From assembly GCF_009905605.1 (NCBI RefSeq), contig NZ_JAAAKZ010000002.1:1-64000 (forward strand): DNA of 64,000 nt, read 5' to 3'. Below the pieces are notes generated by a model. That model did no database searches. It was not told the origin of the DNA and saw only the letters and a program-made list of their open reading frames with translations. The position numbers were made by a program, and so were the translations under genes. Positions within the stretch are counted from its first letter, which is position 1. Each line of letters starts with the position of its first letter. Positions 50,441 through 52,525 of the stretch are shown one piece after another. The DNA is from Runella sp. CRIBMP. GTDB lineage: Bacteria; Bacteroidota; Bacteroidia; Cytophagales; Spirosomataceae.

Positions 50441-51457
50441 CTAGAAATTAGTCGTTTTCCATTCAAGCCCATTTTGCTCCAAGAGCCAGATTCGAGCAAA
50501 TTTTATTTTTTTTGCCACTTTTTTCCCTTCTTTTATTCCCAATACGCTAAACGCCGTGGCTAGGGCGTCGGCCGCGGTTCCATTGGGGGCAATTACCGTG
50601 GTGCGTGTGTGTGTGGTGAGACCAACGCCCGTGCGCGGGTCTACGATGTGAGAATATTTGACTCCCTTATGCTCCATAAAACGGTAGGTATTGCCAGAAG
50701 TAGCCACCCCGCAATTTTTTAGTGTCAATACACGCTTGGCCGTACTGTCTTTTCCTCCCGAACTAACTTCAATCTCCCAACCCTCTTTTTGAGGAGGAGC
50801 CTCGCCAATGGCCAAATCTCCGCCAGCATCTAAAAAAGCAGCAGAAATGCCAAAATAGCGTAATATGCGTAAGGCATCATCGGCGGCGTAGCCTTTTCCG
50901 ATACCGCCAAAATCCAGCCGCATCCCTTTTTGGGTAAGTATCACGGTACTATTTTTAGCATTCAAACGGATTTTTCTGTACCCAACGCTTTGTTTTGCTT
51001 CCAGAATTTGGGCGCTGTCGGGGAAATAATTACGCCGCAAAGCGCGCCGCCAGAGTTGAATAATTGGCCCGACGCTCACATCAAAAGTACCCTTGGTTTG
51101 TTTACTGTAATGAACTGACTGCTGAAGAATATCAAAGAGTATTGGACCCGCTAAAAAGGCTTCACCCGAGCCAGCCGTTGCCGATAAACGATTGGTTTCG
51201 CTACCGTCTAAGTAATCACTCAAGATGGTATTTAGATACTCAATGCGTTTGAAAACACTATCGGAAGCCACTTTTGCGATTGAGTCATGGGGGGCATAAA
51301 AAACAAGATTGAATTCTGACCCCATCGCTTTCCAAGCGTATGAGTACCGACTCTGAGTATGACCCGAGAGGGCGGTACAGCAAGAGATAATACAAAAAAA
51401 GAATACGTATTGAAGCAAAACTAGAGAGGAGTGTACTTTGAACTTAAACATTATCAT
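50441..51457 (-). CDS. apbE: FAD:protein FMN transferase
   Basis: About 338 residues starting at the ATG at 51457 (a frame open to 51634 is not needed and gives a poor N-terminus). An N-terminal membrane segment (LVLLQYVFFFCIISCCTALS) anchors or exports it. The ApbE core includes KAMGSEFNLVFYA, the RLDFGGIGKGYAADDAL motif, AFLDAGGDLAIG and TAADALATAFSVLG. It attaches FMN covalently to Thr residues of flavoproteins such as NqrC and RnfG subunits. No such subunit gene is in the window. It is divergent from the cysE leader. Confidence 0.92.
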   Translation of the reverse strand: MIMFKFKVHSSLVLLQYVFFFCIISCCTALSGHTQSRYSYAWKAMGSEFNLVFYAPHDSIAKVASDSVFKRIEYLNTILSDYLDGSETNRLSATAGSGEAFLAGPILFDILQQSVHYSKQTKGTFDVSVGPIIQLWRRALRRNYFPDSAQILEAKQSVGYRKIRLNAKNSTVILTQKGMRLDFGGIGKGYAADDALRILRYFGISAAFLDAGGDLAIGEAPPQKEGWEIEVSSGGKDSTAKRVLTLKNCGVATSGNTYRFMEHKGVKYSHIVDPRTGVGLTTHTRTTVIAPNGTAADALATAFSVLGIKEGKKVAKKIKFARIWLLEQNGLEWKTTNF

Positions 51458-51466
51458 TCGGTGGAA

Positions 51467-51497
51467 TTGTACAATCTGCAAATAAATGGTAACTTTT
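51467..51497 (+). promoter_or_regulatory. Candidate promoter for the cysE leader
   Basis: TTG (51467-51469), a 20-bp spacer and TAACTTTT (51490-51497) give one mismatch to TTG-N17-23-TAnnTTTG. Transcription from about 51505 would place the leader peptide 50 bases into the RNA. Tentative. Confidence 0.4.
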
Positions 51498-51556
51498 TTA
51501 GGGATAATGAACCTTTTTGCACGGTTTTTGGTATCAAAATTATAAAAATCATTCCT

Positions 51557-51604
51557 GTGAAAACCAAACGTGCCGCTGTGTGTTGTTGCTGTATCCGTGA
51601 CTAA
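51557..51604 (+). CDS. Cysteine-rich attenuator leader peptide
   Basis: A 15-codon open frame GTG ... TAA that encodes MKTKRAAVCCCCIRD. Four consecutive Cys codons (TGT TGT TGC TGT, 51581-51592) precede the serine acetyltransferase gene by 105 bp. A ribosome lacking charged Cys-tRNA would stall on this run. The stop (51602-51604) is 5 bp before the antiterminator segment at 51610. It uses GTG, and no strong Shine-Dalgarno is seen, as is usual in Bacteroidota. The four-Cys run in a 15-residue peptide in front of a cysteine-synthesis gene is very unlikely to be chance. Confidence 0.85.
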   Translation: MKTKRAAVCCCCIRD

Positions 51605-51609
51605 GACAT

Positions 51610-51676
51610 GGAGAGGGAATAATTTACGCTTCAAAACTAAGAAATTGAGCCGCCCTTTCCTGAAGAAAGGGCTTTT
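51610..51676 (+). promoter_or_regulatory. Antiterminator/terminator switch of the cysE leader
   Basis: The terminator stem is GCCCTTTC (51652-51659) with GAAAGGGC (51665-51672), loop CTGAA, followed by T residues. The upstream segment GGAGAGGG (51610-51617) can instead pair with CCCTTTCC (51653-51660) in eight pairs, one of them G-U, and so blocks the terminator. A ribosome stalled at the Cys codons would leave 51610-51617 free and allow read-through; one that reaches the stop at 51602 would cover it and allow termination. This is a predicted cysteine-responsive transcription attenuator. Confidence 0.8.
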
Positions 51677-51697
51677 ATTTTGTAATCAATCAATGCC

Positions 51698-52525
51698 ATG
51701 ACATTAACTGAGCAAGAACTTTCGGTCTCCTTTTTAACGCGTCTTACCGAACAAAATGCCAAGTATCGGCATCGGCTACCTCCTCGCAGCAGTGTAGGGA
51801 AGTTTGTGGAAGAAATGATGTGTTTTCTGTTTCCCGTTACCCAAGACTGCGAACGGACATCGTTAGATTTACCCGAAGCCTATCGCCGTATTCAAAACCG
51901 GTTATCTTGCCTTTTGGACCCGCTTGCCAATCATCTTGACGCTGATAAAGACGTCATTATGGAACGATTCCTGGCTAAGCTCCCCGAGATTTATGAAAAT
52001 CTTTTGTTGGATGCGCAGGCAATTGCAGACAACGACCCCGCTTCGGTGGGCATTGAGGAGGTGATTTCTGTCTACCCAGGTTTTTATGCCATTGCGGTTT
52101 ACAGGGTGGCGCATTTATTGGTGGATTTGAACGTGCCTTTGCTGCCAAGAATGCTTACCGAACACGCTCATGGCCTGACTGGGATAGATATCCACCCCAA
52201 AGCTAATATTGGACAATCGTTTTTTATTGACCACGGAACTGGCGTCGTGATTGGTGAAACGACCGATATTGGTAATAACGTGAAAGTATACCAAGGCGTG
52301 ACGTTGGGGGCATTGAGTGTTTCTAAGTCGATGGCCGAAACCAAACGTCATCCTACCATTGAAGACAACGTAGTTATATACGCTAACGCTACCATTTTGG
52401 GAGGCAAAACGGTCATTGGCAGTGATTCTATCATCGGTGGCAATGCGTGGCTGACGACAAGCGTACCCGCGTTTTCGCAGGTGTATCATCAAAGCGAATT
52501 GAAAATTAGACAGAGTATCCTTTAA
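51698..52525 (+). CDS. cysE: Serine O-acetyltransferase
   Basis: A 275-residue enzyme that acetylates serine with acetyl-CoA, the committing step of cysteine synthesis. It has the N-terminal helical domain ([18 protein letters not shown]) and a left-handed beta-helix with the hexapeptide repeats ([40 protein letters not shown]). The catalytic DHGTG and downstream HPTIEDNV motifs are present. It resembles the EpsC/plastid-type CysE branch. No cysK follows; a terminator does. Its 5' leader carries a four-Cys-codon peptide and a terminator/antiterminator pair, indicating control by charged Cys-tRNA. Confidence 0.95.

Follow-up and report, generated by a model that had tools for sequence, protein, structure and literature searches.

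A predicted cysteine-responsive attenuator with a four-cysteine leader peptide before the serine acetyltransferase gene of Runella

The window that we analysed, a stretch of 64,000 nucleotides from Runella sp. CRIBMP (Bacteroidota, Cytophagales, family Spirosomataceae), carries on its forward strand a gene for a serine O-acetyltransferase of the cysE/epsC type. The gene product matches the profiles NF041874 (150.9 bits, cut-off 150) and TIGR01172 (159.3 bits, below the cut-off of 210.65), in agreement with the assignment made in the initial annotation, and it is the only serine acetyltransferase match at E≤1e-20 in its own genome. Upstream lies a divergent apbE-like gene, whose start is probably the ATG near 51454. 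The gap of 243 nt between the apbE-like gene and cysE holds a promoter-like block, a leader ORF, an antiterminator strand, and a terminator. Because the apbE-like gene is divergent from cysE, this terminator closes no co-directional upstream gene. The features are as follows, with the evidence for each in parentheses:

51509-51533, forward strand: conserved promoter-like block GAACCTTTTTGCACGGTTTTTGGTA (alignment of Runella leaders)
51557-51604, forward strand: leader ORF with GTG start, peptide (M)KTKRAAVCCCCIRD, and TAA stop (direct reading)
51581-51592, forward strand: putative sensor codons, four consecutive Cys codons TGT TGT TGC TGT (direct reading and Runella comparison)
51594-51612, forward strand: small hairpin TCCGTG/CATGGA, 51594-51599 with 51607-51612, overlapping the antiterminator strand (minimum free energy fold of 51540-51690)
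51610-51617, forward strand: predicted antiterminator strand GGAGAGGG, partner 51653-51660 (direct reading, comparison, and folding)
51652-51681, forward strand: predicted intrinsic terminator, 8-bp stem 51652-51659/51665-51672, loop CTGAA, T-rich tail 51673-51681 (hairpin scan, fold, and comparison)
51698-52525, forward strand: serine O-acetyltransferase gene (cysE/epsC type), the presumed regulated gene (profile matches)

Reading the letters directly, we found that the leader ORF is 15 codons long and starts with GTG, not ATG (GTG AAA ACC AAA CGT GCC GCT GTG TGT TGT TGC TGT ATC CGT GAC TAA, 51557-51604), and that its Cys codons occupy leader positions 9-12. The terminator consists of GCCCTTTC-CTGAA-GAAAGGGC at 51652-51672, then TTTTATTTT at 51673-51681, and the end of its hairpin lies 25 nt from the cysE ATG. 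GGAGAGGG (51610-51617) is complementary to CCCTTTCC (51653-51660) over 8 bp, one of which is a G-U pair; because this pairing takes the 5′ arm of the terminator, the two structures are mutually exclusive. These elements had been pointed out in the initial annotation, and its coordinates proved correct when the letters were reread: the 15-codon frame with four adjacent Cys codons at 51581-51592, the 8-bp stem from 51652 with its T-run, and the pairing of 51610-51617 with 51653-51660 at the expense of the terminator are all there as it described them. A search of 51300-51900 against Rfam 15 gave four matches at E≤5, all under their gathering scores, and the sole match in an Rfam search of 12 relatives was a tRNA (in L335). 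A known Rfam leader or riboswitch at cysE was rejected because no family of this kind reached its gathering score.

We compared these elements with what chance would supply. When the 243 nt between the two genes were shuffled 20,000 times with their dinucleotides preserved, 4 of the shuffled sequences contained a short frame (≤40 codons) with four Cys codons side by side, and 133 contained one with three. Across the genome, TGYTGYTGYTGY by itself shows no enrichment (32 + 30 matches versus 39 + 27 for the reversed pattern), and the one terminator-like hairpin found in the 801 bases scanned compares with a shuffle mean of 0.9. Thus, the case rests on position and conservation. The complementarity of the window's antiterminator was equalled by 2.2% of 500 composition-shuffled segments; for the other Runella leaders the corresponding figure was 0.4 to 21%. 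For four-Cys-codon (TGY4) runs we surveyed the window's own genome, inspecting all 62 matches (30 loci, 29 regions, some with two matches). Besides the cysE leader, there are 17 distinct short frames (≤60 codons) with CCCC, 15 of which overlie an open frame of at least 120 aa on either strand. L394 and L405, which have no overlapping long frame, were rejected as second Cys leaders because they precede no recognisable sulfur gene in the stretch read.

Comparison of 13 Runella genomes, the window's own included, showed cysE in all 13 and a leader with four or five adjacent Cys codons before it in 10 (CCCC in eight, CCCCC in two). These ten leaders end 90 to 96 nt upstream of the cysE ATG, in genomes whose CysE identity to that of the window goes down to 76%. 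One leader peptide is common to the window, R. aurantiaca, G050, and one MAG, and there are seven distinct peptides among the ten leaders. Their N-terminal residues vary (VKTKRAAV, VNIKPAAG, MKSIRIAA, METIRTFA, MKTATLLV, MISLYSVSAVG, and MTFLYCIFAVG), the residues flanking the Cys run are not constant, GTG is the start codon in some and ATG in others, and a single synonymous change falls inside the run. On the minus strand, the apbE-like frame reads through the leader in three of the ten genomes, those of the window and two near relatives, but is closed in the other seven Runella leaders. All ten leaders have a terminator predicted from sequence, with a stem of 8 to 9 bp and a T-rich tail. In eight of the ten, the antiterminator octamer lies exactly 5 nt past the stop codon and forms 7 or 8 of 8 pairs; in R. 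zeae and MFBS21, the antiterminator forms only 5 of 8 pairs and is weak.

The initial annotation had looked to related genomes for common conservation and covariation of the Cys codons, the stop position, and both stems. Within the genus, the Cys run and the terminator position are kept in 10 of 13 genomes; covariation is nearly absent (complementarity −12.42 for self versus −12.50 for cross combinations) because the 5′ arm of the terminator hardly changes, which leaves little variation to judge it by. The two partners of this arm alternate A/G against U, and in G095 a two-sided change from G-C to A-U keeps the antiterminator pair and turns the terminator pair at that position into a wobble. 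The leader ORF, the mutually exclusive pairings, their conserved positions, and the gene family can all be read from the letters of these genomes.

Three Runella genomes (L045, L047 of R. defluvii, and L048) retain the promoter-like block with neither leader nor terminator between it and cysE, and we read them as natural losses. In L047 and L048, a TTG codon a short distance downstream of the block seems to be the start of cysE. Relatives that have cysE and lack both the Cys run and the competing stems had been named in the initial annotation as evidence against an attenuator; such relatives exist, namely the three just named and the majority of the remaining genera that we read, and we take them as cases of loss or absence, which do not contradict the attenuator in the group that has retained it. 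The promoter-like block itself is invariant at 24 of its 25 positions among the 10 aligned Runella leaders, the remaining position being the same in nine of ten, and in the three leaderless genomes it stands directly before cysE (with one change in L045). Its end is 23 nt from the leader GTG, and TATAAAA, which follows it at 51541-51547, is 9 nt from the same codon. Related blocks of the form GAACTTT..TTTTGTTT precede cysE in other genera. A scan of the cysE upstream region for a sigma-70-type promoter found none; the block may belong to the ECF-like GAAC class or to the Bacteroidota −33/−7 class.

In the mechanism that we propose, transcription would start downstream of the block at 51509-51533, and a ribosome would trail RNA polymerase into the 15-codon leader. 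Under scarcity of Cys-tRNA, the ribosome would stall at 51581-51592 and leave GGAGAGGG (51610-51617) free, and the free strand could capture CCCTTTCC (51653-51660) before the second terminator arm is made. With the antiterminator formed, polymerase would continue into cysE, and more O-acetylserine, hence more cysteine, would result. With ample Cys-tRNA, the ribosome would reach the stop codon at 51602-51604 and cover GGAGAGGG, so that the terminator at 51652-51681 would halt transcription.

We modelled this choice in the ten Runella leaders by folding the RNA ahead of a ribosome placed at the first Cys codon, the last Cys codon, or the stop codon, with the 3′ end of the transcript set either just past the terminator 5′ arm or past its loop. 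The mean predicted probability that the 5′ arm pairs with the antiterminator was 0.49 to 0.96 with the ribosome stalled at Cys versus 0.00 to 0.66 with the ribosome at the stop codon, and it was higher in the stalled state in all ten leaders, although the contrast is barely present in L044 (0.66-0.70 at the first Cys versus 0.65 at the stop). The initial annotation had argued from spacing that a stalled ribosome frees 51610-51617 and a ribosome at the stop codon covers it. The direction of this argument is borne out by the model in ten of ten leaders; complete masking is not, as the value for the window falls from 0.88-0.92 in the stalled state to 0.42 at the stop codon and is thus lowered without reaching zero. 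Of 200 spacer shuffles, 5% matched the stalled-minus-stop difference of the window, and 41.5% reached its stalled-minus-free contrast. Ribosome-free RNA has no uniform default state, with probabilities from 0.03 to 0.92 across the leaders (0.71-0.72 in the window). Once completed, the terminator is favored at equilibrium, with a probability of at least 0.73 in 38 of the 40 modelled states (the exceptions are 0.36 and 0.41) and of 0.96 to 1.00 in the window. We therefore rejected equilibrium folding as the deciding step: since the finished terminator wins in most states, the choice would have to be kinetic and made while the arm emerges. In classical attenuators the choice is likewise made while the arm is emerging.

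Beyond the genus, we searched 150 genomes of the family, found cysE at E≤1e-40 in 147, and read the upstream regions of all 13 Runella genomes and of 77 of the 134 other family members. In genus g17, cysE is preceded in all nine genomes by a Cys-run leader with a terminator after it (CCC in eight, CC in the ninth); the same holds for one of two genomes of genus g27. CCC short frames (≤40 codons) occur in 8 of the 77 non-Runella regions, all of them in g17 or g27, against 0.45 expected; one g17 CCC frame has 46 codons and is above the 40-codon limit of this count. Covariation of the two pairings over the nine g17 leaders and the one g27 leader fell short of significance when tested by permutation (equalled by 2139 of 20,000), and the complementarity in L065 of g17 was reached by 73% of composition shuffles.

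Genera g3, g5, g9, g17, g19, g27, and g30 share an ungapped element of approximately the form TGTTG-N8-CCNCA-N3-YGGGG-N8-CYAC, which lies mostly 95 to 99 nt downstream of GAAC in a related promoter-like block before cysE (for example in L069, L079, and L118). When 34 genomes were scanned for its core, 18 of them yielded a total of 30 matches, against 5 for the reversed pattern; of the 30, 17 lie before cysE, 9 stand about 200 nt upstream of a gene with a sigma-70 region 2 domain, and 4 are elsewhere. The copies before the sigma factor gene are those of L302, L304, L306, L307, L310, L293, L286, L309, and L284; the gene that follows the sigma factor gene is presumably phytoene-desaturase-like. 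In Runella, the element is missing upstream of this sigma gene in all eight genomes inspected there, and it has no match in the two genomes scanned whole. Upstream of the Runella sigma gene we saw by eye, in L447-L454, inverted repeats TTTGTTTAA...TTAAACAAA, often more than one, which are perhaps autoregulatory sites. We rejected the shared element as a leader peptide because its frame is often without a start or with stops and its third codon positions are not freer; an RNA hairpin is not supported, the stem, judged by eye, being mismatched in many sequences. In our reading, the shared element may be the operator of some regulator that Runella has dropped.

In the other families of the order, a CCC short frame upstream of cysE was found in 0 of 61 regions (0.28 expected from shuffles). 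For the remainder of the phylum, sampled regions gave 8 of 67 against 0.47 expected, some of these regions being longer and the shuffles length-matched, and more distant named loci, many of them outside the phylum, gave 2 of 71 against 0.25 expected. Six of the eight rest-of-phylum cases belong to family f35, which lies outside the window's class and contributed nine regions to the sample. Of 57 f35 genomes searched, 28 have cysE, and 12 of the 28 carry a Cys-rich short frame upstream of it (CCC or at least four Cys), a count made without a shuffle control. Eleven of these 12 frames end in Cys or one residue later, and in other respects the peptides are dissimilar; folding the RNA downstream of the Cys run in the 12 leaders showed no hairpin that recurs across the set (z between −2.49 and 2.54). 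Strong single cases elsewhere are L364 (NGNCCCCLCCCCSFQA) and L150, a Bacteroidales MAG (LCCYCCCCIC), where a terminator scan found none; L146 and L368 are doubtful as poly-Cys leaders.

Two other arrangements were seen in these surveys. Four of the 16 f35 regions that have no poly-Cys leader (L327, L330, L335, and L429) contain CCTGCATATGTT upstream of cysE, with no Rfam match in any of the three regions tested, and this is possibly another cis-regulatory element. In L224 (G308, of the same order), a frame MQIFVSKKYCCPYCCY lies on the reverse strand about 100 to 150 nt before the cysE match, and its end is overlapped by a 9-bp inverted repeat GTTATTGAG/CTCAATAAC followed by a T-rich stretch (by eye); a frame of this type is absent from 13 other cysE-bearing members of its family.

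Tentatively, and as a view that could readily turn out either way, we suggest that poly-Cys leaders of cysE arose repeatedly in Bacteroidota, with or without a terminator, that the Runella attenuator displaced the operator-like element, and that stalling at Cys codons is a recurrent form of cysE control. Two forms would then be distinguished, one bearing a terminator (Runella and two genera of the family) and one lacking it, with a C-terminal Cys run (f35 and scattered others).

We conclude that ribosome-mediated, cysteine-responsive transcription attenuation is the best reading of the Runella cysE leader and a likely one. From the arrangement of the leader we infer that it is translated, that ribosomes stall on it, that the terminator acts in vivo, and that the switch responds to cysteine. 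The alternative that deserves most attention, although we consider it improbable, is that the leader ribosome mainly governs access to the cysE start site at the level of translation, a mode of control proposed for the polycysteine short ORFs of mycobacteria, the hairpin at 51652 not being decisive. Poly-Cys frames without an obvious terminator do precede cysE in 12 of 28 f35 genomes and in L150, Cys leaders probably function without terminators somewhere in the phylum, and 25 nt separate the Runella hairpin from the cysE ATG; in ten of ten Runella leaders, however, the hairpin of 8 to 9 bp is directly followed by a T-rich tail, which is the hallmark of termination.

The remaining readings fare worse. 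That the short frame yields a functional Cys-rich peptide, for example one that binds metals or thiols, with the terminator as a constitutive partial stop, would accord with the capacity of four adjacent cysteines to bind metal and with the prediction of a finished terminator in most equilibrium states. It is nevertheless very unlikely, as the peptide is unconserved outside the Cys run among Runella species, and leader and terminator are jointly absent from three genomes, as would be expected of a leader rather than of a product. Least credible of all is a fortuitous poly-Cys frame beside an ordinary hairpin. TGY4 tracts are common in the genome and unenriched relative to the reversed pattern, one terminator-like hairpin is expected in a region of this size, and the minus-strand apbE-like frame is open across the leader in 3 of 10 genomes, but against these stand the rarity of a four-Cys short frame in shuffles (4 of 20,000), the retention of the leader in 10 of 13 Runella genomes, across CysE identities as low as 76%, and the reappearance of such frames upstream of cysE in other parts of the phylum (8 of 67 regions, with 0.47 expected).

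The trp, his, and leu attenuators are the classical leader-peptide transcription attenuators of amino acid operons. The Runella candidate resembles them in having a short ORF with consecutive codons for the end product of the pathway, a competing antiterminator and intrinsic terminator, a pathway gene downstream, and a stop codon sited so that a finishing ribosome would mask the antiterminator strand; it differs from them in that it is predicted only, would sense cysteine, precedes a serine acetyltransferase gene, and belongs to Bacteroidota. Mycobacterial ilvB1 is cited as a further example of a leader-peptide attenuator in the available part of PMC13236596. Closest in its use of Cys codons with a terminator is uORFC-8-2 before cysS, which the accessible text of PMC8632094 confines to Rhodobacterales and describes as having two tandem Cys codons, usually at positions 14-15, and an intrinsic terminator. 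There, too, ribosome-mediated attenuation through Cys codons in a short upstream ORF, followed by an intrinsic terminator, is the prediction; not matched are the gene, which in Runella encodes serine acetyltransferase, and the four Cys codons at positions 9-12.

In Actinobacteria, leader peptides with Cys runs precede cys operons and cbs, and the part of PMC1262725 consulted reports no terminators for them. Like the Runella leaders, they are short ORFs with consecutive Cys codons upstream of genes of cysteine metabolism, but their Cys run lies near the stop codon and no terminator is reported, whereas all ten Runella leaders have a predicted one. The f35 leaders are closer to this terminator-less type than the Runella leaders are. 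Mycobacterial polycysteine leaderless short ORFs, studied in 2020 by Canestrari and colleagues, reportedly act with the ribosome-binding site of the next gene sequestered and with no intrinsic terminator. Translation-level control by such polycysteine ORFs in M. smegmatis is also described in PMC13236596, which cites Canestrari et al. 2020. Within the phylum, leader-peptide attenuation of amino acid operons has been proposed from transcript data in Flavobacterium psychrophilum, an instance of the same general mechanism for which no cysteine case is named in the available portion of PMC9723704, and leader-peptide-like short ORFs are noted for B. thetaiotaomicron in the sections seen of PMC7366714. 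In the open-licence literature covered (titles, abstract openings, and some passages), we recognised no description of a Bacteroidota cysteine leader. For Bacteroidetes, a Trp motif is known.

If our reading is true, cysteine-sensing attenuation would reach Bacteroidota, at cysE, the first step of cysteine synthesis. Natural variants exist in Runella genomes with and without the leader, in leaders with four versus five Cys codons, and in a distant family with terminator-less leaders. The locus also illustrates that an unannotated 15-codon frame, spotted by eye, can gain backing through comparison. In our best reading, the kind of switch is one already known, and the attenuator predicted from sequence at Runella cysE would be new within it.
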